Assembly (NCBI RefSeq): GCF_003344965.1
Contig: NZ_CP031194.1
Location: 1,488,001 to 1,552,000, forward strand
Reading direction: 5' to 3'
From: Streptomyces paludis
Lineage (GTDB): Bacteria; Actinomycetota; Actinomycetes; Streptomycetales; Streptomycetaceae
DNA length: 64,000 nucleotides
The position numbers were made by a program, and so were the translations under genes. The notes beneath the pieces are model-generated. The model ran no database searches. It was not told where the DNA came from and worked only from the letters and a program-made list of their open reading frames with translations. Below, in pieces: positions 5,235-25,854 of the stretch. The stretch's first letter is position 1. Each line of letters begins with the position of its first letter.

Positions 5235-5640
5235 GCACGGACCCACCGGGCCCGGCCCGGGGAGTTCGTGGCCCGGCCGTCCACCGGCGGGAGGGGGCCG
5301 GGGTCGCAGGAGGTGACGTCCCCGGATGTAGAGCGTGATTTGTGCCGCTGAACGAAACCCGCACATGTGCACCGGCCCGCACGCGGCGTAAATCATGCAT
5401 CCGGGGATGCGCCTCCGGAGTGCCCCGGCCCCCGGCACCGAGACAACCAGCCGCGCCACGCCCCCCGGCCCCCCGGCACTGCGTGCACCGGCCGCACGTC
5501 AAAGACCACGGCCCCCGCCGGGAGGCGACCCCGCCCCGGTACCCGGCACGGGCGCACCGGCCCGCACCCCGGTACCACCGCAGACCACGGCCCCCTAGCC
5601 GGGAGGCGTAACCGTCGGGAGGCGCAACCGCCGGGAGGCG
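5235..5640 (+). repeat. copy A of a dispersed structured intergenic element
   Basis: This gene-free stretch between thiG and the kinase gene is homologous to sequence at 25520-25854 (same strand) and, inverted, to 25309-25505. The core at 5320-5406 folds as one long stem: CCCCGGATG (5320-5328) pairs with CATCCGGGG (5398-5406), and TGATTTGTGCCGC (5336-5348) pairs with GCGGCGTAAATCA (5383-5395), using two G-U wobbles. The apical loop carries the perfect palindrome GCACATGTGC (5361-5370). A perfect Shine-Dalgarno-like AGGAGGTGA (5308-5316) precedes an ATG followed directly by TAG (5326-5331). Downstream, GGGAGGCG occurs several times in near-tandem. No protein is supported. Function is unknown. 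Confidence 0.85.
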
Positions 5641-5646
5641 TCACCG

Positions 5647-5652
5647 TAGACT
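5647..5652 (+). promoter_or_regulatory. possible -10 box giving a leaderless kinase transcript
   Basis: TAGACT lies exactly 6 nt before the GTG start of the kinase gene. In Streptomyces such spacing usually means that transcription begins at the start codon itself. A matching -35 box is not clear, and the AGGA just before the GTG is too close for a normal ribosome binding site. Confidence 0.35.
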
Positions 5653-5658
5653 CAGGAC

Positions 5659-7605
5659 GTGGATACGACCCTTCAGGACCCCATCGTCGGGCACCTGCTC
5701 GACGGCCGCTATCGCGTCGACGCGCGCATCGCCGTCGGTGGCATGGCCACGGTCTACCGGGCCGTCGACACCCGGCTCGACCGGGTCCTCGCGCTCAAGG
5801 TGATGCACCCCGCGCTCGCGACGGACGCGACGTTCGTGGAGCGGTTCATCCGGGAGGCCAAGGCCGTCGCCCGGCTCGACCATCCGAATATCGTCGGGGT
5901 GTTCGACCAGGGCGCCGAGGGCGCGTACGTGTATCTGGCGATGGAGTACGTCGCGGGGTGCACGCTGCGCGACGTACTGCGGGAGCGGGGCGCGCTTCAG
6001 CCGCGCGCGGCGCTGGACATCCTGGAGCCGGTGCTGGCCGCGCTGGGGGCCGCGCACCGGGCGGGGTTCGTGCACCGGGACATGAAGCCGGAGAACGTGC
6101 TGATCGGGGACGACGGCCGGGTCAAGGTCGCCGACTTCGGGCTGGTGCGGGCCGTGGGGGACGTGACGAACACCACCGGGTCGGTGCTCGGGACGGTGTC
6201 GTACCTCGCGCCGGAGCAGATCGAGCAGGGGACGTCGGACACCCGGGTCGACGTGTACGCGTGCGGGGTCGTGCTGCACGAGATGCTGACGGGGGCCAAG
6301 CCGCACACCGGGGACTCCCCCGCGCAGGTGCTGTATCTGCATCTCAACGAGGACGTTCCGGCGCCGTCGGCCTCCGTGCCGGGGCTCGCCGCCGAGCTGG
6401 ACGCGCTGGTCGCGGTGGCGACGGCGCGTGACCCGGAGGGGCGGCCGGCGGACGCCGTGGCGCTGCTGGCGCGGACCCGGGCGGCGCGGGCCGCGCTGAC
6501 GGACGCGCAGCTGGACGCCGTACCGCCGAAGGCGAAGGCGGAGCCGGGCCCCGGCGCGAAGAGCGAGAGCCGTACGACGGTGATTCCGCGCGCGCTGCCC
6601 GGCGAGGACCGCCAGGTGAACCGGACGAGCAGGCTGGAGACCGGGCCTCCGCAGGCCGGGCCGCCCGCGCGCGGCGGCACCGGGCGGCGGACACCGGGAA
6701 TGCCGGGACTGCCGGGAATGCCGCGGCGCGGGATCGTCGCCGTGGTGCTGGGGGTGCTGCTGGCGCTCGGGGTCGGTACGGGCGTCTGGTACATCAACTC
6801 GGGGCAGTTCACGCGCGTGCCGTCGGTCCTCGGCAAGAGCGAGGCGGACGCGCGCCAACGGCTCTCGGACGAGGGGCTCGACGCGAAGGTCACGGAGGGC
6901 TTCAGCGACGCGTTCGAGCGCGGCACGGTAATGGCCACGGACCCGGAGCCGCGCGCCCGGGTGCGGGGCAGCGGCCCGGTGACGCTGGTCGTCTCGCGGG
7001 GGCCGAAGACCGTACGGGTGCCGGAGCTGGCGGGCAGACCGCTGGCGGAGGCGCGGAGCCTGCTGAAGAAGGAGGGGCTGGCGGCCGGGGTGGTCACCGA
7101 GGAGTTCAGCGACGATGTCGCGCGCGGCTCGGTGGTGTCCTCGAAGCCGGCGGGCGGCTCCGACGTACGGCCCGATACGGGCGTGGCGCTGGTGGTCAGC
7201 AAGGGGGCCGCGATCGAGGTCCCGGAGGTGACCGGGCAGCCGCTGGCCGATGCCACGGCGGTGCTGGAGGACGCGGGGCTGAAGGTCGAGGTGGCCGCGG
7301 ACCGGGTGAACTCGACGGTGGCGGAGGGATCCGTGACCGAGCAGTCGGCGGCCCGGGGGACCCGGCTGGCCGAGGGCGACACGGTGACGCTGACCGTGTC
7401 CAAGGGGCCGCGGATGGTCTCCGTACCGGATGTGACCGGGCAGAAGACGGCGGACGCCAGGAAGGCGCTGGAGGCGGCGGGCTTCGAGGTCAAGGAGGAG
7501 CGCAGCTTCCCGTTCCTGGGTGACACCATCGGCAAGCAGTCCGTGGCGGGCGGCGAGACCGCGCCCGAGGGCAGCACGATCACCATCACGACCAAGGGAC
7601 TCTGA
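5659..7605 (+). CDS. membrane Ser/Thr protein kinase with PASTA domains (PknL-like)
   Basis: A 648-residue receptor kinase. The kinase domain covers about 15-280: glycine loop VGGMATVYRAV, catalytic Lys47, Glu66, HRDMKPEN (139-146, Asp141), DFG Asp159 and APEQ. A proline/glycine-rich juxtamembrane linker follows, then one transmembrane helix (about 358-378) and four extracellular PASTA repeats (about 380-648) of the kind that bind peptidoglycan fragments. By position next to an Rv2175c homologue and class II DAHP synthase it corresponds to mycobacterial PknL, which as I recall lacks PASTA domains. It probably senses the cell wall and phosphorylates cytosolic targets. The nfo gene follows after 5 nt and is probably co-transcribed. 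Confidence 0.93.
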   Translation: MDTTLQDPIVGHLLDGRYRVDARIAVGGMATVYRAVDTRLDRVLALKVMHPALATDATFVERFIREAKAVARLDHPNIVGVFDQGAEGAYVYLAMEYVAGCTLRDVLRERGALQPRAALDILEPVLAALGAAHRAGFVHRDMKPENVLIGDDGRVKVADFGLVRAVGDVTNTTGSVLGTVSYLAPEQIEQGTSDTRVDVYACGVVLHEMLTGAKPHTGDSPAQVLYLHLNEDVPAPSASVPGLAAELDALVAVATARDPEGRPADAVALLARTRAARAALTDAQLDAVPPKAKAEPGPGAKSESRTTVIPRALPGEDRQVNRTSRLETGPPQAGPPARGGTGRRTPGMPGLPGMPRRGIVAVVLGVLLALGVGTGVWYINSGQFTRVPSVLGKSEADARQRLSDEGLDAKVTEGFSDAFERGTVMATDPEPRARVRGSGPVTLVVSRGPKTVRVPELAGRPLAEARSLLKKEGLAAGVVTEEFSDDVARGSVVSSKPAGGSDVRPDTGVALVVSKGAAIEVPEVTGQPLADATAVLEDAGLKVEVAADRVNSTVAEGSVTEQSAARGTRLAEGDTVTLTVSKGPRMVSVPDVTGQKTADARKALEAAGFEVKEERSFPFLGDTIGKQSVAGGETAPEGSTITITTKGL

Positions 7606-7610
7606 GGCGG

Positions 7611-8462
7611 ATGCGCAACCCTGTCGGCGGCCATGTCCCCGTGGCCGGCGGGCTGGCGACGACCGGTCTGGCCTACGCACGTGAGCTGGGGGCCGAGGTC
7701 GTCCAGGTGTTCGTCGCCAACCCGCGGGGCTGGGCGACACCGGCCGGGAATCCGGCGCAGGACGAGCGGTTCCGCGCGGAGTGCGCGGCGGAGGGCATCG
7801 CGGCGTATGTCCACGCGCCGTATCTGATCAACTTCGGCTCGCACACGGAGGCGACGGCCGAGAAGTCGGTGGAGTCCCTGCGGCACAGTCTGCGCCGGGC
7901 CCGCGAGATCGGCGCGCCGGGCGTGGTGGTGCACACTGGCTCGGCGACGGGCGGGCGGTCGCGCGAGGTGGCGCTGGCGCAGGTGCGGGATCTGGTGCTG
8001 CCGCTGCTGGACGAGCTGGACCACGACGACGACCCGTATCTGCTGCTGGAGTCGACGGCGGGCCAGGGCTCCTCGCTCTGCTCCCGGACCTGGGACTTCG
8101 GGCCGTACTTCGAGGCGCTGGACGCGCATCCGAAGCTGGGGGTCTGTCTGGACACCTGCCACATCTTCGCGGCCGGGCACGATCTGACCGGTCCGCACGG
8201 GATGCGGCAGACGCTGGACCTACTGGTGGAGACGGTCGGCGCGGGAAGGCTGCGGCTGATCCACGCCAATGACTCGAAGGACGTGGTCGGCGCGCACAAG
8301 GACCGCCACGAGAACATCGGCGCGGGCCATATCGGCGAGGAACCGTTCCGGGAGCTGTTCCGGCATCCGGCGACGGAGGGCGTACCGCTGGTGATCGAGA
8401 CGCCCGGCCACGGGGCCGGGCACGCGTCGGACGTGGAGCGGCTGAAGAAGCTGCGCGGCTAA
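7611..8462 (+). CDS. nfo: deoxyribonuclease IV (AP endonuclease)
   Basis: An AP endonuclease family 2 enzyme that cuts 5' of abasic sites during base excision repair. The 283-residue TIM barrel starts VGGHVPVAGGLATTGLAYA and carries the zinc-ligand motifs in order: HAPYLINFGS, VVHTGSATGG, LLLESTAGQGSS, CLDTCHIFAAGHDL, HANDSKDVVGAHKDRHENIG, and VIETPGHG at the end. GAGGCGG just before the ATG serves as ribosome binding site. Pairing with a Ser/Thr kinase gene is unusual functionally, and I infer co-transcription only from the 5-nt gap. Confidence 0.93.
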   Translation: MRNPVGGHVPVAGGLATTGLAYARELGAEVVQVFVANPRGWATPAGNPAQDERFRAECAAEGIAAYVHAPYLINFGSHTEATAEKSVESLRHSLRRAREIGAPGVVVHTGSATGGRSREVALAQVRDLVLPLLDELDHDDDPYLLLESTAGQGSSLCSRTWDFGPYFEALDAHPKLGVCLDTCHIFAAGHDLTGPHGMRQTLDLLVETVGAGRLRLIHANDSKDVVGAHKDRHENIGAGHIGEEPFRELFRHPATEGVPLVIETPGHGAGHASDVERLKKLRG

Positions 8463-8474
8463 GACCTTTCGGAC

Positions 8475-9116
8475 CTAGAGTTCCGGCCCGTCGCCGGGTT
8501 CCTCCTGGTACGAGTAGCGCTGCTCGGCCCAGGGGTCGCCGACGTTGTGGTAGCCGCGCTCCTCCCAGAAGCCGCGCCGGTCGGCGGTCATGTACTCGAC
8601 GCCCCGGACCCACTTGGGGCCCTTCCAGGCGTACAGGTGCGGGACGACGAGCCGGACCGGGAATCCGTGCTCGGCAGTGAGCAGTTCACCGTCCTTGTGG
8701 GTGGCGAAGATCGTACGGTCGCCAACGAAATCGTCGAGCCGGAGATTCGCGCTGAAGCCGTATTCGGCCCAGACCATCACATGGGTCACGTCGGGCGCGG
8801 GCGGTGCGAGTTCGACGACCGTACGGGCGGGGACACCGCCCCATTCGGCTCCGACCATGCTGAACTTCGTCACGCAGTGCAGATCGGCGACGACCGTGGA
8901 GAACGGCAGGGCCGAGAATTCTCCGTGATTCCAGCAGTGTTTGTCGCCGTCGGCGGTCGCTCCGAAGACCCGGAACTCCCAGCGTTCCGGCCGGAACTTC
9001 GGCACCGGCCCGTAATGGGTGACCGGCCAGCCGCGCTGGAGCCGCTGCCCCGGTGGCAGCTCGGGCTGTTCCGGCTCCCGACGTTCCCGGCTCTCCGGCT
9101 GACCCATGTCTTCCAT
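8475..9116 (-). CDS. molybdopterin oxidoreductase, sulfite-oxidase-like
   Basis: A 213-residue protein matching the catalytic molybdopterin domain of the sulfite oxidase superfamily (YuiH/MsrP-like small members). The conserved molybdenum-ligating cysteine is in VADLHCVTKFS. WGGVPARTVVELA, YGFSANLRLDDF, LTAEHGFPVRLVVP and the GPKWVRGVEYM segment are typical. No signal peptide or TAT motif is visible, so it is probably cytosolic, and its substrate is unknown. ATG at 9116 or 9107 could be the start; neither has a strong ribosome binding site. A long upstream extension in the same frame runs antisense through the bfr gene and is not real. Confidence 0.86.
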   Translation of the reverse strand: MEDMGQPESRERREPEQPELPPGQRLQRGWPVTHYGPVPKFRPERWEFRVFGATADGDKHCWNHGEFSALPFSTVVADLHCVTKFSMVGAEWGGVPARTVVELAPPAPDVTHVMVWAEYGFSANLRLDDFVGDRTIFATHKDGELLTAEHGFPVRLVVPHLYAWKGPKWVRGVEYMTADRRGFWEERGYHNVGDPWAEQRYSYQEEPGDGPEL

Positions 9117-9263
9117 GGTGACAGACCGGTGGGGGTGGTCATGACCAGGCACGGGCCGATTCGGGCAACTCCTACTAAGCATGCACTTACTGGACGGCCC
9201 GTCGGAGTCGGTGCAAAGATGCGCGCATTCTGCCCCGTCACCTTGCGCGAAAGGAGTCCTGCG

Positions 9264-9743
9264 ATGCAGGGCGACCCCGAGGTCATTGAATTTCTCAATG
9301 AGCAGCTGACTGCCGAACTCACCGCGATCAACCAGTACTTTCTCCACGCGAAGATGCAGGAGAACTTCGGCTGGACGAAGCTCGCCAAGTACACACGCGC
9401 CGAATCCTTCGACGAGATGAAGCACGCCGAGCTGCTCACCGACCGGATTCTGTTCCTGGACGGGCTGCCCAACTATCAGCGGCTTTTCCATGTACGTGTC
9501 GGCCAGACCGTCACCGAGATGTTCCAGGCCGACCGGCAGGTCGAGGTGGAGGCGATCGACCGGCTGAAGCGCGGGATCGATGTCATGCGGGCCAAGGGCG
9601 ACCACACGTCCAAGGGGATCTTCGAATCGATCCTGGAGGACGAGGAGCACCACATCGACTATCTCGACACCCAGCTGGAGCTGGTCGAGAAGCTCGGTGA
9701 GGCGCTCTACATCGCGCAGCTGATCGAGCAGCCCGACAGCTGA
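9264..9743 (+). CDS. bfr: bacterioferritin
   Basis: A 24-mer iron-storage ferritin with haem. The 159-residue sequence keeps all ferroxidase ligands at the standard positions: Glu18, Glu51, His54, Glu94, Glu127 and His130. It also keeps Met52, the haem ligand shared between two subunits. AAGGAG lies 7 nt before the ATG. It is convergent with the bacterioferritin-associated ferredoxin gene, so storage and release of iron are encoded side by side but on separate transcripts. No iron box is visible upstream of this gene. Confidence 0.97.
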   Translation: MQGDPEVIEFLNEQLTAELTAINQYFLHAKMQENFGWTKLAKYTRAESFDEMKHAELLTDRILFLDGLPNYQRLFHVRVGQTVTEMFQADRQVEVEAIDRLKRGIDVMRAKGDHTSKGIFESILEDEEHHIDYLDTQLELVEKLGEALYIAQLIEQPDS

Positions 9744-9774
9744 CCGGCCGGGCACAGAAGTCGGGCGCCGGGCG

Positions 9775-10032
9775 TCAGGCGGCTTCGGGAAGGTCCTGTA
9801 CGGCCTGCACGGCCTGTACGGCCGTCTCCGAGGCTCCCGCGAGGGTCTCGGACAGCAGCTCGCGGCGCGGGCAGCCACCGCGGCCCAGGAGCGACTGGAT
9901 CCGGCGTACGCAGGAGCCGCAGTCGGTGCCGGCCTTGCTGGCCGAGGCGATCTGCCGGGGGGTGCACGCACCCCCCGCCGCGTGTTCCCTGACCTGTGTT
10001 TCGGTGATGCCGAAGCAGGAGCAGACGTACAC
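9775..10032 (-). CDS. bfd: bacterioferritin-associated ferredoxin (BFD-like [2Fe-2S])
   Basis: A small [2Fe-2S] protein that donates electrons to bacterioferritin so that stored Fe3+ can leave as Fe2+. The four cysteines occur as CxC near the N-terminus (VCSCFGITE) and CxxC in GTDCGSCVRRI, the BFD arrangement. I prefer the GTG at 10032 (MYVCSCFG) because GGGAGG lies 8 nt upstream. A GTG at 10041 in the same frame overlaps that site. The short alanine-rich tail is not conserved in the family. An iron box lies about 60 nt upstream, so it should be induced when iron is low. Confidence 0.93.
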   Translation of the reverse strand: MYVCSCFGITETQVREHAAGGACTPRQIASASKAGTDCGSCVRRIQSLLGRGGCPRRELLSETLAGASETAVQAVQAVQDLPEAA

Positions 10033-10090
10033 GCGGTTCACCTCCCGGTGGGGTCGAGGCCGGAGTCTCCGGAGTGCCGCTCCGGACCCT

Positions 10091-10109
10091 TCCGGTGAGG
10101 CTAACCTAA
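10091..10109 (-). promoter_or_regulatory. iron box (DmdR1/IdeR operator) for bfd
   Basis: Read on the minus strand the 19-mer is TTAGGTTAGCCTCACCGGA, which matches 15 of 19 positions of the actinobacterial IdeR/DmdR consensus TTAGGTTAGGCTAACCTAA. A further TAAGG precedes it and extends the repeated TTAGG pattern. It lies upstream of bfd and not of bfr. Iron-loaded repressor would shut off bfd when iron is plentiful. Confidence 0.82.
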
Positions 10110-10154
10110 CCTTACCCGCGCCGGGCCCGGCGGAAAAGTCCCGGAAACGCCAGT

Positions 10155-10183
10155 GGGGTACGGATCACATCGATCCGTACCCC
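10155..10183 (-). terminator. terminator after the DAHP synthase gene
   Basis: GGGGTACGGATC pairs perfectly with GATCCGTACCCC around a 5-nt loop. It starts 28 nt past the stop of the DAHP synthase gene. Confidence 0.8.
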
Positions 10184-10210
10184 GCCGTCGTACTCCGTCC
10201 GGTTCCGGAC

Positions 10211-11563
10211 CTACTGGTCGCGGTACATCTCGGCGACGAGGAAGGCCAGGTCCAGCGACTGGCTGCGGTTGAGGCGCGGGTCGCAGGCCGTCTCGTAGCG
10301 CTGGTGGAGATCGTCGACGAAGATCTCGTCGCCGCCGCCCACGCACTCGGTGACATCGTCGCCGGTCAGCTCGACATGGATGCCGCCCGGGTGGGTGCCG
10401 AGGCCCTTGTGGACCTCGAAGAAGCCCTTGACCTCGTCGAGCACGTCGTCGAAGCGGCGGGTCTTGTGGCCGGAGGCCGCCTCGAAGGTGTTGCCGTGCA
10501 TCGGGTCGGTCACCCACGCCACCGTGGCGCCGGCGGCCGTGACCTTCTCGACCAGCTGGGGCAGCTTGTCCCGCACCTTGTCGGCGCCCATCCGGACGAT
10601 GAAGGTCAGCCGGCCGGGCTCGCGGTCGGGGTCGAGCCGGTCGATGTAGGTGAGCGCCTCGTCCACCGTGGTCGTCGGGCCGAGCTTGATCCCGATCGGG
10701 TTGCGGACCTTCGAGGCGAACTCGATGTGCGCGCCGTCGAGCTGCCGGGTGCGCTCACCGATCCAGAGCATGTGGCCCGAGACGTCGTACAGCTTGCCGG
10801 TCCGGGAGTCGACGCGGGTCAGCGCCGTCTCGTAGTCCAGCAGCAGCGCCTCGTGCGACGAGTAGAACTCGACGGTGCGGAACTCGGCCGGGTCGGTGCC
10901 CGCGGCCTTCATGAAGTTCAGCGCGTTGTCGATCTCGCGGGCGAGCTGCTCGTAGCGCTGGCCGGACGGGGACGACTTCACGAAGTCCTGGTTCCAGGCG
11001 TGCACCTGGCGCAGGTCGGCGTAGCCGCCGGTGGTGAAGGCGCGGACGAGGTTGAGCGTCGCGGCGGACGCGTGGTACATCCGCTTGAGCCGCTCGGGGT
11101 CCGGGACGCGGTCCTTCTCGTTGAAGGCGAAGCCGTTGACGGAGTCACCGCGGTACGTCGGCAGGGTGACGCCGTCCCGGGTCTCGGTGCCCTTGGAGCG
11201 CGGCTTCGAGTACTGGCCGGCGATCCGGCCGACCTTCACGACGGGCACGGACGCCGCGTAGGTGAGGACGGCGCCCATCTGGAGCAGGGTCTTCAGCTTG
11301 TTCCGGATCTGGTCCGCGGAGACGGCGTCGAACGCCTCGGCGCAGTCGCCGCCCTGGAGCAGGAACGCCTCGCCCTTCGCCACGGCCGCCATCCGGGACC
11401 GCAGCTGGTCGCACTCGCCCGCGAAGACGAGCGGAGGATAGGCCGCCAGTTCGGCCACGACCTCGCGCAGGGCCGCCTGGTCCGGATACTCCGGCTGCTG
11501 GGCAGCGGGCAGATCCTGCCAGGACGGCACGTCGGTGGTGGACTTCTCAGCGTTCACTGTCAC
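10211..11563 (-). CDS. aroH: class II 3-deoxy-7-phosphoheptulonate synthase
   Basis: First enzyme of the shikimate pathway, condensing phosphoenolpyruvate and erythrose 4-phosphate to DAHP. The 450-residue protein has the plant-like class II architecture: FAGECDQLR, FLLQGGDCAEAF, RIAGQYSKPRS, the GFAFNEKDRVPDP insert, SSHEALLLDYE, WIGERTRQLDGAHIEFA, GIKLGPTT, WVTDPMHGNT and the LNRSQSLDLAFLVAEM end. Two GTG codons (11563 and 11557) can start it. The trp leader and trpE fusion diverge from it, so the entry to aromatic synthesis and the tryptophan branch share one intergenic region. Called aroG in mycobacteria. Confidence 0.95.
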   Translation of the reverse strand: MTVNAEKSTTDVPSWQDLPAAQQPEYPDQAALREVVAELAAYPPLVFAGECDQLRSRMAAVAKGEAFLLQGGDCAEAFDAVSADQIRNKLKTLLQMGAVLTYAASVPVVKVGRIAGQYSKPRSKGTETRDGVTLPTYRGDSVNGFAFNEKDRVPDPERLKRMYHASAATLNLVRAFTTGGYADLRQVHAWNQDFVKSSPSGQRYEQLAREIDNALNFMKAAGTDPAEFRTVEFYSSHEALLLDYETALTRVDSRTGKLYDVSGHMLWIGERTRQLDGAHIEFASKVRNPIGIKLGPTTTVDEALTYIDRLDPDREPGRLTFIVRMGADKVRDKLPQLVEKVTAAGATVAWVTDPMHGNTFEAASGHKTRRFDDVLDEVKGFFEVHKGLGTHPGGIHVELTGDDVTECVGGGDEIFVDDLHQRYETACDPRLNRSQSLDLAFLVAEMYRDQ

Positions 11564-11654
11564 GCGCCCCAGATTACGTGGTCGGCGCGGCGTTCATCCG
11601 CACGGACCACAGTGTGGAACGCGCGGCCCGTCCCGATGCGCTAGGGTGCCGCTC

Positions 11655-11711
11655 ATGTTCGCGCTTTCGAACCAGACCTGGTGGTGGCCCGCTCGTCCGG
11701 CGGCCCACTGA
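11655..11711 (+). CDS. trpL: trp leader peptide with three consecutive Trp codons
   Basis: An 18-codon frame reads MFALSNQTWWWPARPAAH, with TGG TGG TGG at 11679-11687, and ends 20 nt before the attenuator hairpin. Ribosome stalling at the Trp codons under tryptophan shortage would favour read-through into trpE. A TAGGGT -10 box ends 7 nt before the ATG and there is no Shine-Dalgarno sequence, so the leader transcript is probably leaderless. A trp attenuator ahead of a trpE-G fusion has been described in Streptomyces venezuelae, and this looks like the same system. Confidence 0.93.
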   Translation: MFALSNQTWWWPARPAAH

Positions 11712-11731
11712 CATCGCGCGCAACGTATCGC

Positions 11732-11768
11732 GAAGGCCGCCCGAGGGGCGGCCTTCAGTGTTTTCCGG
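11732..11768 (+). terminator. trp attenuator hairpin
   Basis: GAAGGCCGCCC (11732-11742) pairs perfectly with GGGCGGCCTTC (11746-11756) over a 3-nt loop, and is followed by a GTTTT run. It sits between trpL and trpE. This is the terminator half of the attenuator. Confidence 0.92.
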
Positions 11769-11832
11769 GGCCGGGACACCGGCCGGGGAAGGCGGGCCGT
11801 TCCTCTCCCCCTCCCGGAAGGAACACCCGCCC

Positions 11833-13770: not shown

Positions 13771-13794
13771 GGTCAGGCGCCGAGGTCAGGTGGG

Positions 13795-13816: not shown

Positions 13817-13836
13817 GCCCGTCCGTACCCCGCCGC

Positions 13837-18181: not shown

Positions 18182-18217
18182 ACAACGCCCTTCAGGAGTT
18201 CAGCGCTCTTCCGTGTT

Positions 18218-18976
18218 TCAGGACGCGGGCACACGCAGGGCGGCGAGGACCGGCAGATGGTCCGTCGCCGCCCTCAGATCGTCCTCGGTGACGCCCGGCA
18301 GCCCGCGCGGCACCCCGCAGCCGAGGACCTCGATCCCCTCCGTGACGAAGACGGCGTCGATGCGCTGACGCGGTGCGGCGGGCGTCGACGTGAACTCGCC
18401 GCCCCAGGGGCGGACCGTCCAGCAGTCCCGCAGCTCCCGGGCGAGCAGCCGGAAACTCCGGCCGGTGGGGCCCTCGTTGATATCGCCGGCGGCGAGGGCG
18501 TACGGCACGTCCAGGGCCGCCAGCCGGGCCGTCAGCGCCCGCGCCTGCGCGTACCGCTCGTCGGCCCGCAGGCTCAGATGGCAGCTGAGCAGCCCCAGCC
18601 GGGCGCCGCCGATCCGGACCACCGCCGTCGCGAAGCCGCGCCGGTGCAGGCCCGGGGTGTGGGGCAGCAGGATGTCCTCCGTGCGCTCGACGGTGGCGCG
18701 CAGCGAGCAGAGCAGCAGCGGGCCGGTCGCCGGGGCGCCGCCGCCGAGCACCACGAGACCGCTGTGCGCGGCCAGCCAGGCGGCGTGCTTGCGCCAGCGG
18801 AAGAAGCGGGGCGCCTCCTGGACGAGGACGAGATCGGGCGCGCAGGCGCTGATCACCCGGGCCAGCGCCGCCCGGTCGTCGCGCATCGAGCGGATGTTGT
18901 AGCTGAGCACCCGGATCAGGGCCGAACCGTCCGGTGCGGTGCCGGAGCCGGGCAGCGTGTCCATCGCCATCGCCAT
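18218..18976 (-). CDS. endonuclease/exonuclease/phosphatase family protein
   Basis: A 252-residue member of the DNase I-like superfamily. Recognisable parts are IRVLSYNIRSMRDDRAAL near the start (metal-binding Asn), DLVLVQEAP (catalytic Glu), LGLLSCHLSLRADER, AAGDINEGPTG (the GDxN motif), RIDAVFVTEGI and ATDHLPVLAALRV (terminal His). All metal and catalytic motifs are present. Substrate could be DNA, RNA or a phosphoester and cannot be told from sequence. No signal peptide. ATG codons at 18976, 18970 and 18964 are all possible starts. Confidence 0.85.
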   Translation of the reverse strand: MAMAMDTLPGSGTAPDGSALIRVLSYNIRSMRDDRAALARVISACAPDLVLVQEAPRFFRWRKHAAWLAAHSGLVVLGGGAPATGPLLLCSLRATVERTEDILLPHTPGLHRRGFATAVVRIGGARLGLLSCHLSLRADERYAQARALTARLAALDVPYALAAGDINEGPTGRSFRLLARELRDCWTVRPWGGEFTSTPAAPRQRIDAVFVTEGIEVLGCGVPRGLPGVTEDDLRAATDHLPVLAALRVPAS

Positions 18977-19034
18977 GGGGACAACGTAGCGGGGCGAGCG
19001 CCGAGCGGCACCGCGTCACCGCCGCCGGACACGG

Positions 19035-19073
19035 CCGCGCCCGCCGTATCCCTGACGGATACGGCGGGCGCGG
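19035..19073 (-). terminator. strong terminator after glkA
   Basis: The 17-bp arms (19035-19051 and 19057-19073) pair perfectly around the 5-nt loop CTGAC. It lies between the end of glkA and the next gene on the same strand and should separate the two transcripts. Confidence 0.85.
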
Positions 19074-19084
19074 TACCGCTCGTG

Positions 19085-19175
19085 CGTACGGAGGTGCGAG
19101 GTGTAGCGGTGCTACTTGTACGCGGTGAACGAGGTGTACGGAGGTGCTGGGTGTACGCGGTGAACCAGGTGTACG
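19085..19175 (-). repeat. short imperfect tandem repeat after glkA
   Basis: About three imperfect copies of a 33-35 bp unit. The last two share GTACGCGGTGAAC followed by AGGTGTACG (19118-19140 and 19153-19175). It runs right up to the glkA stop. It looks like replication slippage. No coding or structural role is evident. Confidence 0.6.
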
Positions 19176-20117
19176 TCAGCCCTGCCGGGCCAGGTCCGCG
19201 GCGCCCACCAGCCCGGCCTCGCCGCCCAGTTGGGCCGCGAGCACCTGCGCGTGCGGACGCCACTCGCCGCCGATCAGCCAGCGCCGGAACGACTTGCGGA
19301 TCGGGTCGAGGACCAGCTCGCCCTCGTCCGAGACCCCGCCGCCGACGATGAACGCCGACGGGTCGAAGAGCGAGGCCAGGTCGGCCAGGCCCGCGCCCGC
19401 CCAACGCGCCAGCTCACGGAAGGAGTCGACGGCCACCGGGTCGCCCGCGCGGGCCGCCGCGCTGATGTGCCGGCCCTCGATGGCCTCCGGGGTGCCGTCG
19501 CCGAGACCGAGCAGTATCCCCGCGTTCTCCGGTGTCGCGTTGGCGCGCTGCTTGGCGTAGCGCACGAGGGCGCGCCCCGACGCGTACTGCTCCCAGCAGC
19601 CCTGGCTGCCGCAGCCGCAGAGCAGCCCGTCCGGGACGACCCGGATATGGCCGAACTCGGCGGCCACACCGAAGCGTCCGCGGCGCAGCTTGTTGCCGAT
19701 GATGATGCCGCCGCCGAGGCCGGTGCCGAGGGTGATGCAGATGACGTCCTCGTGGCCCTGGCCGGCGCCGAACCTGTACTCGCCCCAGGCCGCGGCGTTC
19801 GCGTCGTTCTCCACGACGACCGGCAGTCCGATCCGCTGCTCGACCTTGTCCTTGAGCGGTTCGTGCCGCCAGTTGATGTTCGGTGCGAAGAGAACGGTCG
19901 CGCGCTTGTCGTCGACGTAACCGGCCGCGCCGATGCCGACCGCCTCGATCTGGTGCCCCTCGCCGGCGCCGGAGACCGCGGCGCAGATCGCGTCCACGAT
20001 GCCTTCGGCGGTCGGCGGGGTGGGTACCTTGTGCGTCTCCAGGATGGCGCCCTCTTCGTCGACCACGCCGGCCGCGATCTTCGTGCCGCCGATGTCGACG
20101 CCGATGGTGAGTCCCAT
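19176..20117 (-). CDS. glkA: ROK-family glucokinase
   Basis: Phosphorylates glucose with ATP. In Streptomyces this enzyme is also needed for glucose catabolite repression. The 313-residue protein has the ATP phosphate loop DIGGTKIAAGVV near the start, VGIGAAGYVD, the catalytic Asp in VVENDANAAAWGE, TLGTGLGGGII, and the ROK zinc motif CGCGSQGCWEQYASG. GAGGGA precedes the ATG at 20117. The small DUF5304-type gene upstream probably shares its transcript. Length and position agree with S. coelicolor SCO2126 as I remember it. Confidence 0.95.
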   Translation of the reverse strand: MGLTIGVDIGGTKIAAGVVDEEGAILETHKVPTPPTAEGIVDAICAAVSGAGEGHQIEAVGIGAAGYVDDKRATVLFAPNINWRHEPLKDKVEQRIGLPVVVENDANAAAWGEYRFGAGQGHEDVICITLGTGLGGGIIIGNKLRRGRFGVAAEFGHIRVVPDGLLCGCGSQGCWEQYASGRALVRYAKQRANATPENAGILLGLGDGTPEAIEGRHISAAARAGDPVAVDSFRELARWAGAGLADLASLFDPSAFIVGGGVSDEGELVLDPIRKSFRRWLIGGEWRPHAQVLAAQLGGEAGLVGAADLARQG

Positions 20118-20183
20118 GTGTCCCTCAGTTTTCGGTCGAGCCCCGCTGGCGTCAACCGTACCCGAGGGCGGGCGCCCGACCGG

Positions 20184-20669
20184 TCAGTCCAGGTCGATCG
20201 GACCGCCGGAAGCGGGCCCTCCGTCCCTGGGGTCGGTGGGGTCGCCGGAGGTCTTCGTGTCGGGTGCGGGCCCCGGGGCGGCGTCCGGGGTGTCCCCGCG
20301 GGTCCACCGGGTCTCCTGGGACTCGACGGCCGAGCGGTACGCGGCGAGAAGTTCACCACCGGCGGCGGCGAGATGGTCGAAGACATCCGGGTTGCGCTCG
20401 ATGACCGGCTCGACGGCCGCCTTCGCCTGCTGGATGAACTGCTGTACGGCGCCCTGCGCGGCCATCCCGAACAGCGGGTTCTGGAGGGCGGAGACCTTGT
20501 CCGCCACCGCGTCGACCAGCTTGCGCAGCTCCTCGGCGGCCGATCCGGGCGGCGGCCCGTAGGCGGCGCGGCGGCGCGCCTTCTCCGCCTCCAGATCCTC
20601 GGCGCAGGCCGAGGCCCAGGCGTCCGAGTCGGCGGCGGGGCGCTCGGTGGGATCGCTGGGATCGCTCAT
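20184..20669 (-). CDS. DUF5304-type protein upstream of glkA
   Basis: A 161-residue acidic protein of unknown function. The central part is helical (about 20-115, including AEELRKLVDAVADKVSALQN and FIQQAKAAVEPVIERNPDVF). Both ends are disordered and rich in Asp, Pro and Ser. No catalytic motif or membrane segment. In S. coelicolor the gene in this position (SCO2127) has been discussed for an influence on glucose use and repression together with glkA. Here it lies 66 nt upstream of glkA on the same strand. Start is the ATG at 20669. Confidence 0.78.
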   Translation of the reverse strand: MSDPSDPTERPAADSDAWASACAEDLEAEKARRRAAYGPPPGSAAEELRKLVDAVADKVSALQNPLFGMAAQGAVQQFIQQAKAAVEPVIERNPDVFDHLAAAGGELLAAYRSAVESQETRWTRGDTPDAAPGPAPDTKTSGDPTDPRDGGPASGGPIDLD

Positions 20670-20749
20670 GGGGTGCTCCCGCGGTATCGGGCCGGTGCTG
20701 CTCACCATTGCCGCTCACCTTCGACGGTACCCGAACGGCCGGGCGCCGT

Positions 20750-21934
20750 TCAGGGGGTACGCGGCCAGAGCGCCGGATCGGGCGCGAAGCGCACGCGCAG
20801 CACGCCGTCCGTGAGACCGGCGCCGGTGACCGTGCAGCGGCGCAGCGCGGAGGGCAGCGGGACGATACGGCGGAACGCGCCCACGGTGAGCAGGAGTTCG
20901 TCGTCGCGGCGGACCAGTCCGAGATCGCTCTTGACCGCGCCGGGCAGCGGTACGTGCCAGACCAGCAGCTTCTCCTCGCTGAGCCGGTCCTCGACGGTCC
21001 ACTCCGCGGCCCCGGGGAGCGCACCGGGCGCCGGCTCGGCGGGGGGCGCGACTCCGAGCCGGGCGAGGTCGTCCGGGCCGCGCGGGTCCCGGCCCAGGTG
21101 GGCGGCCTCGCGGACGGCTCCGTCGGCCCCGTACTCCTCGTACCACTCCTCCAGGCACTTGCGCTGCTGCGCGACGAGGGTCGCGAGCCAGGGGCCCGTG
21201 TCGTCGCCGGGCAGCACCCGGTTGGGGACGAGGGTGTCGGCGCGCAGTCCGAAGAGGCCGAGGCCGGTACGGGCGGAGCGCAGCGCCTCGGCGGCGGCGG
21301 GCCCCGGCTCGGCGACCAGCCGTACGGTCGTCCCGGGGGCCTCGATCAGGGTCTGTACGGCGGCGAGCCCCTCGTCCCAGCGGGCGGCGGCCTCGTAGAG
21401 CCAGTGCGCGGGCATCGGTATCCCCGCGAGCTGGGCCATCAACGGGCGCAGCGCGCGGGCGGCCTGGCGTTCCTTGGGCACCAGCCGGCGCAGATAGCGG
21501 CGCAGTTGTTCGGGCAGGGCGAGTACGGCGAGCGCCTCGCGCAGCGGCGGCAGGTCGACGACGACGACGTCCCAGTCGCCCTCGGCGGCCCGGCGCAGGG
21601 CGTGCAGCAGGGCGAACTGGCCGCTGCCGGGGAGTTCGGTGATCTCCTCGTCGGCCAGCGGGCGGGCGCCGAGCAGGTCGAGCCCGGTGGCCAGGCGCTC
21701 CTGGAGGCCGAGCAGTTCCGTACGGAAGTGCTCCCCGGAGTCGATGCCGGCCGCCCAGAACCCGTCGGCGATCGCGGTGGGCGCGGGTCCGACCGGGCGG
21801 CCCAGCAGGGCGTCGAGCGGATCGGCGGAGAGCAGCAGGGCGCGCGCGCCGCCCCGGGCGGCGGCCTGCGCGGTCGCGGCGGCGACGGTGGTACGGCCCG
21901 CGCCGCCGGGGCCGGTGACCAGGACCGTACGCAT
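20750..21934 (-). CDS. ArsA-like ATPase with altered P-loop
   Basis: A 394-residue protein of the ArsA/GET3 fold. The P-loop reads GPGGAGRTT (8-16), where active family members have GKGGVGKTT. Both the signature lysine and the Walker A lysine are missing, replaced by Pro9 and Arg14. The switch region ALLLSADPLDALLG and the Walker-B-like DVVVVDLPPL are still recognisable. A C-terminal small beta domain (LLVWHVPLPGAVKSDLGLVR onwards) resembles the ArsA HSP20-like extension. It corresponds by order to Rv2184c. With arsenic genes absent, a role in handling proteins or metabolites at the envelope is more likely than arsenite export. The SRPBCC gene lies 5 nt upstream in the same operon. Confidence 0.8.
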   Translation of the reverse strand: MRTVLVTGPGGAGRTTVAAATAQAAARGGARALLLSADPLDALLGRPVGPAPTAIADGFWAAGIDSGEHFRTELLGLQERLATGLDLLGARPLADEEITELPGSGQFALLHALRRAAEGDWDVVVVDLPPLREALAVLALPEQLRRYLRRLVPKERQAARALRPLMAQLAGIPMPAHWLYEAAARWDEGLAAVQTLIEAPGTTVRLVAEPGPAAAEALRSARTGLGLFGLRADTLVPNRVLPGDDTGPWLATLVAQQRKCLEEWYEEYGADGAVREAAHLGRDPRGPDDLARLGVAPPAEPAPGALPGAAEWTVEDRLSEEKLLVWHVPLPGAVKSDLGLVRRDDELLLTVGAFRRIVPLPSALRRCTVTGAGLTDGVLRVRFAPDPALWPRTP

Positions 21935-21939
21935 CGGGG

Positions 21940-22383
21940 TCAGGCCCCCGGACCGGATTCGACGCGCTTCTTGAGGCCGGCCAGGGCCCGGTCAATGATG
22001 ACCTTCTCGGCCTTGCGCTTGATCATGCCGAGCATCGGGATCTTGACGTCGACGGTCAGCCGGTAGGTGACCTCCGTGCCGCCGGGGACGGGCGCGAGGG
22101 CGTAGGAGCCGTCCAGCTGGCGCAGCATCTGGGACTTGACCAGGGTCCAGCTGACCTGGTCGTCGCCGGTCCAGGTGTAGGCGAGGGTGTGGTCGTCCTT
22201 GATGGCGCCGGCGTCCAGCACCAGCCGGACCTTCTCGGCGCGGCCGTCCGCGTCGGTGGCGAGCACCTCGGCCTCCTTCACCTCGCCGGTCCAGTCCGGG
22301 TAGCGGGCGAAGTCGGCGATCACGCCCATGACGTCGGCCGGTGCCGCCTCGATCGTGATGCTCGAACTGGTGTGTTCCGCCAT
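21940..22383 (-). CDS. SRPBCC (START-like) lipid/ligand-binding protein
   Basis: A 147-residue protein of the polyketide cyclase/dehydrase SRPBCC superfamily. It starts SSITIEAAPADVMGVIADFARYPDW, the hallmark first strand and helices of the fold, and ends with a long helix over the cavity (MIKRKAEKVIIDRALAGLKKRVE). Such proteins bind hydrophobic ligands. No catalytic residue can be named. It is first in an operon with the ArsA-like gene, the same pairing as Rv2185c-Rv2184c. The two proteins may therefore act together, which is inference. Confidence 0.87.
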   Translation of the reverse strand: MAEHTSSSITIEAAPADVMGVIADFARYPDWTGEVKEAEVLATDADGRAEKVRLVLDAGAIKDDHTLAYTWTGDDQVSWTLVKSQMLRQLDGSYALAPVPGGTEVTYRLTVDVKIPMLGMIKRKAEKVIIDRALAGLKKRVESGPGA

Positions 22384-22481
22384 CGCCGTGCCTTTCCGGT
22401 GCCTGGGTGCGCGGTGTGCAGGCTATCGCGCCGACGCGGACCCGCCGCGCCCGGTCCGGGGCGGCCCGGCCTCCGTCCGGC

Positions 22482-23267
22482 TCACCACTCCATGGTCCAG
22501 GGCCGCCCGGTCGACGCGAAGTGCCCGACGTTCACGCACTCGGTGGCCCCGATCCGCATCCGGCGGGCCAGCGGCTGGTGGACATGGCCGAAGAGCGCGT
22601 ACCGCGGCCGGGTGCGGCGGATGGCGTCCAGCAGGGCGCCGCTGCCGCGCTCGAAGCGGCGGGCGACGGTGTCGTACGTCAGCTCCGGCACGTCCGGCGG
22701 GATGTGCGAGCAGAGCACGTCGACCTCGCCGAGCGCCTCGATCTTGGCCGCGTACTCCTCGTCGGAGATCTCGTACGGGGTGCGCATCGGCGTCCGCAGA
22801 CCGCCTCCGACGAAGCCGAAGACCCGGCCGCCCAGCTCGACGCGCTCGCCGTCGAGCACGGTGGTGCCGGGCCGCGCGTACTCGGGCCAGAGCGCCGGCA
22901 TATCGACATTGCCGTAGGTCGCGTACGTCGGTGTGGGAAAGGCGGCGAAGAGTTCGGCGTACTGGCGCCGTACGGCCTTCTCGATGGCGGTCGCCTGGTC
23001 GATCCCGAGCCCGGCCCACAGCTCCCGGCCGAACTCCCGGGCCTCCTCGAAGCGGCGGGCGGTGCGCAGTTCGACGATCCGGTCGGCGTTCGCGGTGCCG
23101 AAGAGGTCCGGGAAGATACCCCGCGAGTGGTCCGCGTAGTCCAGGAAGAGCACGAGATCCCCGAGGCAGATCAGGGCGTCGGCGCCGTCCCCCGCGCGCG
23201 CGAGATCCCGCGCGTTGCCGTGCACGTCACTGACCACATTGACTCGCATACCTCGCACGCCTCGCAT
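22482..23267 (-). CDS. calcineurin-like metallophosphoesterase
   Basis: A 261-residue phosphoesterase. The metal-binding motifs appear in order: SDVHGNARDL (D-x-H), ICLGDLVLFLD (GD), YGNVD (GN-D), LCSHIPPD, and LFGHVHQPLARRM (GHxH). No signal peptide. Substrate is unknown; relatives hydrolyse nucleotides or phosphodiesters. I prefer the ATG at 23267 because AGGGTGATC, a good match to the anti-Shine-Dalgarno, lies just upstream. An ATG six codons later lacks one. The same TAGGGT could also be a -10 box 7 nt from the ATG, which would make the message leaderless. Confidence 0.86.
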   Translation of the reverse strand: MRGVRGMRVNVVSDVHGNARDLARAGDGADALICLGDLVLFLDYADHSRGIFPDLFGTANADRIVELRTARRFEEAREFGRELWAGLGIDQATAIEKAVRRQYAELFAAFPTPTYATYGNVDMPALWPEYARPGTTVLDGERVELGGRVFGFVGGGLRTPMRTPYEISDEEYAAKIEALGEVDVLCSHIPPDVPELTYDTVARRFERGSGALLDAIRRTRPRYALFGHVHQPLARRMRIGATECVNVGHFASTGRPWTMEW

Positions 23268-23511
23268 GCCGATCACCCTAGAACTCCGCCGGGCCGCCCG
23301 GTAGAGGGGGCCGGACCTGCGCTTCCGCCGCGGCCCGGCACGCCACGGATCACGGCGCGCGAGGTACCGTCGTAAACGTGTGACGCGGGAAACATCGGCC
23401 AAGACCCCCTATCGAGAAGCGAGTACCGATGGGTAACGTCCGGGCAGTCCAGTGGCCCGCAGCCGCGCGCACAGAGCCGTGTCGCCCGGCGCCCGATGAG
23501 GAGCAGCAGAT

Positions 23512-25308
23512 TTGCGCGAGTTCAGCCTTCCGGCCCTGTACGAGGTCCCCTCGGACGGCAATCTGACCGATCTCATCCGGCGCAACGCCGTACAGCATCC
23601 CGAGGTGGCGGTCCTGGGCCGCAAGGTGGACGGCGTCTGGACCGACGTCACCGCCACCCAGTTCCTCGCCGAGGTGCGCGCGGCCGCCAAGGGCCTGATC
23701 GCGGCGGGCGTCCAGCCCGGCGACCGGGTCGCGCTGATGTCCCGTACCCGCTTCGAGTGGGTGCAGCTCGACTTCGCCATCTGGAGCGCGGGCGCGGTCA
23801 CCGTACCGGTGTACGAGACCAGCTCCGCCGAGCAGGTCCAGTGGATCCTCGGTGACTCCGGCGCGGTCGCCGCGATCGTCGAGAGCGACGACCACGCGGC
23901 GACGCTGGAGTCCGTGCGGGACGCCCTGCCCGGTCTCCGCGACGTCTGGCAGATCGACCGGGGCGGGGTGGACCGGCTCGTCGAGGCGGGCGCCGAGGTC
24001 AGCGACGAGACGGCCGACGCCCGCGCCACCAGCGCCAAGGCCGACGACCCGGCGACCATCGTCTACACCTCGGGCACCACCGGCCGCCCCAAGGGATGTG
24101 TGCTGACCCACCGCAGCTTCTTCGCGGAGTGCGGCAACGCCGTCGAGCGCCTCAAGCCCCTCTTCCGCACCGGCGAGTGCTCCGTCCTGCTCTTCCTGCC
24201 CGCCGCGCATGTCTTCGGACGGCTGGTCGAGGTGGCCGCCGTGATGGCCCCCATCAAGCTCGGCTGCGTACCCGACATCAAGAACCTCACCGAGGAACTG
24301 GCCACCTTCAGGCCGACCCTGATCCTCGGCGTCCCCCGCGTCTTCGAGAAGGTCTACAACGCGGCCCGCGCCAAGGCCCACGCCGACGGCAAGGGCGCGA
24401 TCTTCGACCGCGCCGCGCAGACCGCCATCGACTACAGCCGCGCCCTGTCCACCCCGCGCGGCCCCTCCCTCGGCCTGCGGATCCGCCACGCCGTCTTCGA
24501 CCGGCTCGTCTACACCAAGATCCGCGCCGTCCTCGGGGGCCGCGGCGAGTACGCCATCTCCGGCGGCGCGCCGCTGGGCGAACGCCTCGGCCACTTCTTC
24601 CGCGGCATCGGCTTCACCGTCCTGGAGGGGTACGGCCTCACCGAGTCCTGCGCCGCGACCACGTTCAACCCCTGGGACCGCCAGAAGATCGGCACGGTCG
24701 GCCAGCCGATGCCGGGCAGCGTCGTACGCATCGCGGACGACGGCGAGGTCCTCCTCCACGGCGACCACCTCTTCGCCGGCTACTGGAACAACGGGGCGGC
24801 GACCGCCGAGGCCCTCACCGACGGCTGGTTCCACACCGGCGACATCGGCACCCTCGACGAGGACGGCTATCTCTCCATCACCGGCCGCAAGAAGGAGATC
24901 CTCGTCACCGCCGGCGGCAAGAACGTCGCCCCCGCCGTCATCGAGGACCGCATCCGCGCGCACGCCCTCGTCGCCGAATGCATGGTCGTCGGCGACGGCC
25001 GCCCGTTCGTCGGCGCGCTGATCACCCTCGACGAGGAGTTCCTCACCCGCTGGGCCACCGACCACGGCAAACCCACCGACGCCACGGCGACGACGCTCCG
25101 GCAGGACCCGGAGCTGCTGGCGGAGATCCAACGGGCGGTGGACGAGGGCAACGCGGCGGTCTCGAAGGCCGAGTCCGTCCGCAAGTTCCGCGTCCTGACG
25201 GGCCAGTTCACGGAGGAGGCGGGCCACATCACGCCGTCGCTGAAGCTGAAGCGGAATGTGGTGGCGAGGGATTACGCGGACGAGATCGAGTCCTTGTACA
25301 CACGCTAG
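23512..25308 (+). CDS. fadD: long-chain acyl-CoA synthetase (AMP-forming)
   Basis: Activates fatty acids as acyl-adenylates and transfers them to CoA. The 598-residue protein carries the AMP-binding signature IVYTSGTTGRPKGCVLTH (about 183-200), EGYGLTESCAAT, the WFHTGDIG motif and the hinge/lysine region ITGRKKEILVTAGGKNVAP. This layout matches FadD15/FACL-type enzymes. It starts at a TTG with GAGGAGCAG upstream. By order it equals Rv2187, next to the glycosyltransferase of the PimB group. That fits a shared lipid-glycolipid neighbourhood. Confidence 0.93.
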   Translation: MREFSLPALYEVPSDGNLTDLIRRNAVQHPEVAVLGRKVDGVWTDVTATQFLAEVRAAAKGLIAAGVQPGDRVALMSRTRFEWVQLDFAIWSAGAVTVPVYETSSAEQVQWILGDSGAVAAIVESDDHAATLESVRDALPGLRDVWQIDRGGVDRLVEAGAEVSDETADARATSAKADDPATIVYTSGTTGRPKGCVLTHRSFFAECGNAVERLKPLFRTGECSVLLFLPAAHVFGRLVEVAAVMAPIKLGCVPDIKNLTEELATFRPTLILGVPRVFEKVYNAARAKAHADGKGAIFDRAAQTAIDYSRALSTPRGPSLGLRIRHAVFDRLVYTKIRAVLGGRGEYAISGGAPLGERLGHFFRGIGFTVLEGYGLTESCAATTFNPWDRQKIGTVGQPMPGSVVRIADDGEVLLHGDHLFAGYWNNGAATAEALTDGWFHTGDIGTLDEDGYLSITGRKKEILVTAGGKNVAPAVIEDRIRAHALVAECMVVGDGRPFVGALITLDEEFLTRWATDHGKPTDATATTLRQDPELLAEIQRAVDEGNAAVSKAESVRKFRVLTGQFTEEAGHITPSLKLKRNVVARDYADEIESLYTR

Positions 25309-25505
25309 CCGCCTCCCGGCGGGGGGCCGTGGTCTTGTCTCGGGCTGAGCCCGGTACGTACGTGCGGGTTGTCGCCGGGGTCCCCTCCGGTGGCACGCGC
25401 CCGGACTGCACGATTTACGCCGCGTGCGGGCCGGTGGCCACCCGCGGGTTTCGCTCAGCGGCACAAATCGCGCTTTACGTCCGGACACGCACCCCCTGCG
25501 GTGCC
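25309..25505 (-). repeat. copy B of the dispersed structured element, inverted
   Basis: The element starts on the base after the fadD stop and runs on the minus strand. Its core (25401-25484) keeps the stem of copies A and C but with compensatory changes: the inner arm pair is CGATTT/AAATCG where A and C have TGATTT/AAATCA, and the outer pair is CCGGAC/GTCCGG where they have CCGGAT/ATCCGG. The loop holds the different perfect palindrome GGTGGCCACC (25433-25442). The start-stop ATGTAG of A and C is ACGTAA here. The outer end next to fadD (CCGCC-TCCC-GGCGG) can also form a small terminator hairpin. Confidence 0.83.
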
Positions 25506-25519
25506 CCCTTCACGACCCG

Positions 25520-25854
25520 CACAGACCCACCGGGCCGAGCCCGGGACGCTTGGGCGCGGGCCGTCCACCGGGCGGAGGGGGCCGGGGTCGCAGGAGGTGA
25601 CGTCCCCGGATGTAGAGCGTGATTTGTGCCGCTGTACGGTCCGCAGTCGGCCGACGAAGCCGCACGCGGCGTAAATCATGCATCCGGGGATGCGCCTCCG
25701 GAGTGCCCCGGCCCCCGGCACAAACGAACCAGCCGCACCTCGAACCGGCCCGCACCATGCCCCGCCGGTAGGCGACCCCGCCCCGGCCCCCGCCACGGGC
25801 GCACCGACCGCACCGGCCGCACCGCCAAAGACCACGGCCCCCCGCCGGGAGGCG
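25520..25854 (+). repeat. copy C of the dispersed structured element
   Basis: Nearly identical to copy A at 5235-5640 over two blocks of about 60 bp on each side of the variable loop. Core at 25604-25689. The loop palindrome here is GTCGGCCGAC (25646-25655). AGGAGGTGA (25592-25600) and ATGTAG (25610-25615) are kept. It points away from copy B, so the two form one large inverted arrangement filling the 556 bp between the convergent fadD and glycosyltransferase genes. Its end GCCGGGAGGCG lies about 10 bp from the stop of the glycosyltransferase gene. No gene is supported in this interval. Confidence 0.85.

Follow-up and report, generated by a model that had tools for sequence, protein, structure and literature searches.

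What is the element that recurs between genes in a 64,000-nucleotide (nt) stretch of the Streptomyces paludis genome (contig NZ_CP031194.1, positions 1,488,001 to 1,552,000, forward strand; "the window"), and why do its stems stay paired while their sequence changes? Copies lie at 5235-5640 (+), 25309-25505 (-) and 25520-25854 (+) of the window, the latter two together forming one composite. A reading of the sequence alone had reported a three-copy element; those three copies are real, but the 8.45-Mb genome holds 37 matches to a 90-nt core query, and an anchor search of the fetched loci again gives 37 positions, in 28 loci. That the structure and the family are real is very likely. The interpretation to which we give a probability of about 0.5 is that the element is a non-autonomous mobile hairpin comparable to the repetitive extragenic palindromes (REPs), recognised as one single strand and amplified lineage by lineage.

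The hairpin and its probable folding strand

Every copy folds into a long, imperfect hairpin of ~140 nt in which a conserved, unpaired 5-nt tag lies internally, between a conserved inner stem of 15-16 bp, capped by a variable loop, and an outer stem that varies and is compensated. In the S. paludis genome the tag defines two subtypes, A (GTAGA) and B (GTAAA). The single copy beside thiG has the following parts:

5235..5640 (+): the whole single A-type element, spacer remnant, then hairpin, then tail modules (sequence, repeat detection)
5293..5438 (+): full hairpin, with outer stem, tag, inner stem and variable loop (folds, family structure)
5328..5332 (+): unpaired tag GTAGA (folds, tag counts in 125 copies)
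5333..5348 (+): 5' arm of the inner stem, GCGTGATTTGTGCCGC (conserved alignment columns)
5349..5382 (+): variable apical loop with GCACATGTGC (loop comparison)
5383..5398 (+): 3' arm of the inner stem, GCGGCGTAAATCATGC
5505..5640 (+): repeated tail modules ACCACGGCCCC..GCCGGGAGGCG (pattern matches)

The bounds of the composite are those of the repeat unit, with inverted modules whose outer limits are 25310 and 25854:

25310..25854 (both strands): composite of two opposite hairpins, B on the minus and A on the plus strand, tags facing
25310..25333 (-): left terminal inverted module, CGCCTCCCGGC..GGGGCCGTGGT (pattern matches)
25408..25478 (-): B-type core (folds, sequence), with tag GTAAA 25478-25474, inner 5' arm 25473-25458, loop 25457-25424 and inner 3' arm 25423-25408
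25612..25681 (+): A-type core (folds, sequence), with tag GTAGA 25612-25616, inner 5' arm 25617-25632, loop 25633-25665 and inner 3' arm 25666-25681
25831..25854 (+): right terminal inverted module, ACCACGGCCCC..GCCGGGAGGCG, the complement of the left one

The single-strand folds of the three window cores beat dinucleotide shuffles (z = -4.9, -2.9 and -6.3), and the paired changes first noticed between the copies, TGATTT/AAATCA to CGATTT/AAATCG and CCGGAT/ATCCGG to CCGGAC/GTCCGG, are present in the sequence. In an alignment of 36 diverse copies (A1), two-sided compensatory change affects 16 of 26 pairs; 93.2% of cells pair, versus 80.5% after shuffling, a percentage inflated by the derivation of the A1 structure from these same sequences; weightier evidence comes from the two-sided changes found in separate lineages. 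The covariation score, 0.358, lies above both backgrounds: shuffled alignments score 0.126 (none of 500 reaches 0.358), and sliding the partners yields no more than 0.082. Copies scarcely differ in the inner core, and the outer stem varies from lineage to lineage, with types such as CCCCGGAT/ATCCGGGG, TTCGGGAC/GTCCCGAA, CCTGGAC/GTCCAGG and GGGGC/GCCCC, some of them common to several species; some genomes carry more than one type. The rare changes of the inner stem are often compensated (A-T to T-A at locus L136, T-A to G-C at L068 and separately at L150, T-A to C-G in the B type of S. paludis), the exceptions being G opposite A at L054 and L071 and C opposite A at L202.

Among 125 distinct copies gathered by sequence searches, the tag reads GTAGA in 59, GTAAA in 59, CTAAA in 3, GTGAA in 3 and GTGGA in 1, counts that lean to GTARA because nearly all of the copies were collected by a GTARA-based pattern. 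The loop does not bear out the expectation of a perfect 10-bp palindrome in every copy: one is found in 10 of 30 distinct S. paludis copies (those with an insert in the arm left out) and in 12 of the 125 overall; 20 of the 30 and 93 of the remaining 95 lack it. Shuffled loops contain a palindrome of at least 10 bp in ~4% of cases; in the S. paludis genome, where loops share ancestry, the palindrome is above chance.

The strand that folds is indicated by the imperfect pairs. With cells counted per genome label over the 125 copies, and bases read on the tag strand, the 16 outer-stem pairs yield 529 Watson-Crick, 43 G.T, 2 A.C and 54 other cells, and the inner stem 439, 99, 4 and 11, respectively. 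Three mostly-G.T positions supply 89 of the 99 inner G.T cells, leaving 10 G.T versus 4 A.C; A1 without its two conserved G.U columns has 38 G.T versus 2 A.C, with 64 other cells, gaps included. Stability predictions with RNA parameters favour the tag strand over its complement in 113 of 117 copies (on average -97.0 versus -85.0 kcal/mol; 8 of the 125 were left out for short or unread flanks). Cells share ancestry and are not independent, so that these are strong tendencies and not exact probabilities. Cruciform formation or quasi-palindrome repair would predict G.T on one strand to be no commoner than A.C. With G.T far commoner than A.C on the tag strand, these results point to selection acting on one strand, the tag strand, in the form of either RNA or single-stranded DNA. 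The selection on structure that the sequence-only reading had proposed in just these two forms is thus strongly supported, by covariation, by the G.T bias and by tag-strand stability.

The polarity of the hairpin is unrelated to gene orientation: among 49 single copies between tandem genes, 28 share the direction of the genes and 21 oppose it (p = 0.39). The selected strand is therefore not the strand of the neighbouring messenger, and this is the main reason to prefer recognition during movement over a function in read-through RNA. The tag and inner stem would be recognised on just one strand, most likely DNA that replication or transfer leaves single-stranded, by a trans-acting protein, and the same protein would copy or move the unit; copies that do not pair would fail to spread, and stems would stay paired. 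Copies would persist mainly downstream of genes, sparing promoters, where they would be tolerated or used, and may act, as two-way transcription terminators.

The tag strand might instead be transcribed and the hairpin selected as RNA, whether as a 3'-end stabiliser, an RNase III substrate, a protein-binding RNA or a small RNA, an alternative that we take seriously but judge somewhat unlikely. It would account for two conserved G.U pairs in A1 (columns 40-108 in 36 of 36 copies, 47-101 in 34 of 36) and for a CCGGA that is present on the 3' side in 86 of 125 copies and, by eye, faces a purine loop, and it suits a location at gene 3' ends. Short transcripts do map to palindromes in S. coelicolor and E. 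coli, many of them in 3' untranslated regions, as presented in the text of PMC4681348, whose authors take them mostly as decay intermediates. Polarity speaks against selection on read-through mRNA, since in the 21 tandem singles opposite to the genes such RNA would be the weaker strand; and neither window element has a sigma-70-like promoter, in a scan limited to that promoter type.

Copies, subtypes and distribution

Nine of the 28 S. paludis loci consist of a B and an A copy in opposite orientation, tags facing, 133-135 nt apart. The remaining loci are singles, all of A type by tag, with one (L006) mixed in other features. At three singles (L002, L013 and L026) remnants of the outer part of B are readable by eye, and several singles look like pairs without their former B. 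Inverted end modules are present on the composites, and singles lack one end; of 30 distinct S. paludis copies, 19 have both end motifs on the 3' side of the hairpin, versus 1 of 95 others, with persistence of the hairpin core. Five A loci (L032, L033, L034, L035 and L027/L036) have a GC-rich insert of ~35 nt in the inner 3' arm, and in Streptomyces sp. NRRL F-5135 (L145) a similar insert is present at that position. This second hairpin is possibly another small element. The mixed A/B single at L006, near 5015782 of the genome, adjoins what appear by eye to be remnants of clustered regularly interspaced short palindromic repeats (CRISPR).

Outside S. paludis the family is patchy and, in the genomes sampled, confined to one genus. 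A 21-nt pattern comprising the tag and the inner 5' arm, at most one mismatch allowed, matches in 22 of 392 genomes of the genus, and the same pattern read backwards in 0 of 392. The exact pattern occurs in 71 stretches of a named sequence collection, 70 from Streptomyces and 1 from Candidatus Endobugula, the latter judged a chance match because the matching 3' arm is absent. The covariance-model search of Streptomyces genomes that the sequence-only reading suggested was made with a model built from 36 copies and a threshold of E at most 0.001: it has matches in 54 of 295 genomes, of which some of the weakest may be chance, the E-values being rough. A class-wide draw of 246 genomes from 103 genera gives four matches, all in the same genus (1 of 103 genera). 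As far as sampled, the family is restricted to Streptomyces. The model, which is applicable to any genome, also finds new subtypes with other stems and tags (e.g., GCTTA).

Copy number and stem sequence differ by lineage. All 11 close pairs from the anchor search are tag-facing, and so are the inverted dimers found elsewhere: one in F-5135, one in L-9-10 and those in five further genomes, among 20 model-found loci. One locus, L263 (genome G191), is a tag-facing pair of short, internally deleted matches at 1298-1369 (-) and 1512-1585 (+), the latter with its outer stem kept and its inner stem mostly lost. Several elements stand at contig ends of draft genomes, as though assemblies broke there. 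Two queries find no match in phage sequences and three find none in plasmid sequences; a query of the G074 type finds one plasmid copy (NZ_CP108416.1 91053-91214, L302, 83.7%), on a 161-kb linear plasmid from Streptomyces, which is a possible route between strains.

Placement between genes

The preferred site is between genes, mostly at gene 3' ends. With genes called by codon-position composition, 113 de-duplicated fetched loci divide into 49 convergent, 7 divergent, 53 tandem and 4 edge cases, none inside a called gene; the excess of convergent over divergent sites has a binomial p of 7e-9, some loci being orthologous between species and hence not fully independent. The window composite starts one base past the stop codon of an AMP-binding enzyme gene (23512-25308, +) and ends ten bases before a convergent glycosyltransferase gene (25865-27019, -); the single copy lies between thiG (4446-5228, +) and a gene for a PASTA-domain serine/threonine kinase (5659-7605, +; all four assigned by Pfam).

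For the convergent slot that the composite occupies, 40 relatives were searched, which gave 29 fetched loci, 15 of them with both flanks, and 11 measured gaps (four minus-strand loci are unmeasured). These gaps are 68 to 641 nt long, with one of 2203, and several hold unrelated strong GC-rich hairpins. The element itself is found by blastn at the slot in 0 of the 29 loci, 14 of which have one flank only, so that the slot may fall outside the fetched DNA. At the thiG-kinase site, the relatives' matches, among those listed, span both genes but not the element; gaps measured in 16 of 29 relatives (11 minus-strand loci skipped, 2 with one flank) are 34 to 573 nt long, with 13 within 58 to 260, and the window gap is 430. 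Insertion here or loss elsewhere is possible; insertion is favoured because the element is absent from so many of the relatives' slots.

The convergent bias is also what would be seen if the hairpins were ordinary bidirectional terminators, inherited vertically or spread by recombination between copies, with pairing maintained by termination and by template-switch repair of quasi-palindromes. Like the elements, intrinsic bidirectional terminators of high-GC bacteria are strong, GC-rich hairpins that lie where genes converge; for S. clavuligerus the text of PMC8269248 gives 55 bidirectional transcript ends; some relatives have unrelated GC-rich hairpins at the two window sites; and orthologous positions are common to several species. 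The S. paludis end modules, moreover, are terminator-like in sequence and would face both genes: the right module at 25831-25854, read from the right-hand gene, has a T-rich tail (1 site versus 0.2 in shuffles), and the tail of the thiG copy has a terminator-like site at 5526-5511 (-), again 1 versus 0.2. Termination leaves the conserved tag and inner stem unexplained, however. No conserved sequence core or strand preference would be expected of such terminators, a two-way terminator should favour neither strand, and template-switch repair should also erase the conserved bulge and the G.U pairs. We consider this explanation improbable.

Resemblance to REPs and the search for a mover

The sequence-only reading recognised no described family, and the same outcome was reached here. 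At gathering scores nothing in Rfam release 15 matches the element, and a permissive scan of six family loci gives four matches, all at one locus and to microRNA-precursor families far below cut-offs. The outcomes named in the sequence-only reading as refuting it did not appear: covariation is above the shuffled and slid controls, and no family in Rfam matches. No description of the family was met in the open-access literature, where absence is not proof of novelty; the word Streptomyces is absent from the main texts of a RepRanger survey (PMC12306157) and of a survey of stem-loop families (PMC2267715), and neither Streptomyces nor Actinobacteria occurs as a word in the main text of PMC3733652, which describes GTAG-tagged REPs. 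With this family Streptomyces gains a large set of structure-constrained, REP-like repeats, of a kind that the literature searched does not describe for the genus.

The closest comparison is with those GTAG-tagged REPs and the related REPIN and BIME arrangements. As the text of PMC3733652 describes them, GTAG REPs have an unpaired GTAG beside a stem of 5-13 bp with G.T pairs, form dimers and heterodimers with singles as dimer remnants, occur in many intergenic, lineage-specific copies between convergent or same-direction genes, at 3' ends, and are moved by REP-associated tyrosine transposases (RAYTs) of the Y1 class. The Streptomyces elements appear alike in their GTAG-like unpaired tag beside a stem, and are alike in their intergenic and lineage-specific sets, their A/B heterodimers and dimer-remnant singles, their G.T stem pairs and their convergent or same-direction placement; in the terms of that paper their tag-facing pairs are TT dimers. 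They differ from what it describes in that the tag is internal, with the conserved inner stem on one side and the compensated outer stem on the other, and not terminal; in a hairpin of ~140 nt with an inner stem longer than the REP range; in a tag that is as often GTAAA as GTAGA (in the pattern-collected set); in host phylum; and in having no RAYT link. The element is not classed as a GTAG REP, because stem length, nested outer stem, host phylum and transposase link differ, but would appear by analogy to work like one. CGTC-tagged REPs, which in the same text are likewise hairpin repeats without a known dedicated transposase, have another tag and 8-9-bp stems.

A RAYT or IS200-type mobiliser has no support. 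The Y1_Tnp domain was not found in the S. paludis genome, though an E. coli control was detected; it is present in 3 of the 11 carriers first tested, and across genomes in 16 of 54 carriers versus 83 of 241 non-carriers (Fisher p = 0.53), which is no association. No end of an insertion sequence was identified, the genome-wide transposase test covering the Y1 family only. Nor did blastp clusters of the 1.5-kb flanks or of 8-kb stretches contain a recurring transposase-like neighbour: the clusters reflect orthologous loci and common families only, and ten members of the 8-kb clusters, taken to Pfam, are ATP-binding cassette (ABC) and major facilitator superfamily (MFS) transporters, histidine kinases, a GntR regulator, an amino-acid permease and enzymes, with one short protein unmatched. 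An autonomous copy flanked by two hairpins was considered for pairs ~2-2.5 kb apart in G165, G055 and G096 and rejected, since the nameable genes inside are ordinary. Between the G165 hairpins a 303-aa open reading frame has no Pfam match, and its named relatives identify it as a DNA-3-methyladenine glycosylase; the G096 pair encloses a GNAT protein, with SIS and NnrD-like genes outside; the other frames tried at these pairs, two only in G055, have no Pfam match.

These failures to find a mover count against a mobile hairpin, and so do several further observations. By eye, no target-site duplication is visible at six S. paludis composites. Homologous flanks recur in several species: an MFS/ABC-transporter slot at L055, L061, L062, L064 and L082, and a locus adjoining a DBI_PRT gene that S. 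paludis L004 has in common with L054, L063, L068 and L077 (genes identified by Pfam on L055 and L004). Such shared orthologous loci fit vertical inheritance and speak against rapid movement, and movement itself is something we infer, no close strain pair having been compared. Preference for a replication strand is inconsistent, seen in G074 and not in G098 or S. paludis (G000): copies pointing to dnaA number 15 of 18 in G074, 10 of 14 in G165, 3 of 9 in G098 and 9 of 18 among S. paludis singles, with G055 (its contig starts at dnaA) and the mixed single L006 left out. The copies of strain AcH 505, finally, have uncompensated outer-stem mismatches, and these contribute part of the 54 outer and 11 inner cells that are neither Watson-Crick, G.T nor A.C.

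Least of all do the data suggest a miniature inverted-repeat transposable element, moved by a DDE transposase on ~25-bp inverted end modules with the hairpins as passengers: the elements are indeed small, non-coding and dispersed, with inverted ends in S. paludis, but both end motifs are all but confined to that genome while the conserved part is the hairpin core, singles lack one end, no target-site duplication is visible, and no transposase was noticed near copies.

For a mobile hairpin recognised as a single strand, these results imply that the mobilising protein is probably not a RAYT/Y1 transposase. It is tempting, if rather doubtful, to go further and propose a hairpin-specific mobilisation outside the RAYT/Y1 class in Streptomyces, in which a putative protein would read tag and inner stem on one strand and would repeatedly amplify elements, giving each lineage its own compensated stems. 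The comparison of G.T with A.C pairs and the indifference to gene direction turn this into a testable question, namely what moves or uses such hairpins without a RAYT; the elements may in any case set the transcript ends of many Streptomyces genes.

The window holds other structured or repeated sequences. The only Rfam matches in it lie away from the element: a TPP riboswitch at 2936-3049 (+; 65.2 bits), directly upstream of the DAO-family oxidoreductase gene that precedes thiG, and a SAM-IV riboswitch at 36839-36956 (-; 112.9 bits). Directly upstream of the kinase gene, a stretch resembling CGTAGACTC is kept in the window and in several relatives (L277, L279, L286 and others), and is perhaps the promoter of that gene. 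Tandem 18-nt repeats occupy 55760-55867, and nested inverted repeats, with arms of 33 to 103 nt that are 76-96% complementary, extend over 57854-59451 around a centre at ~58.65 kb.

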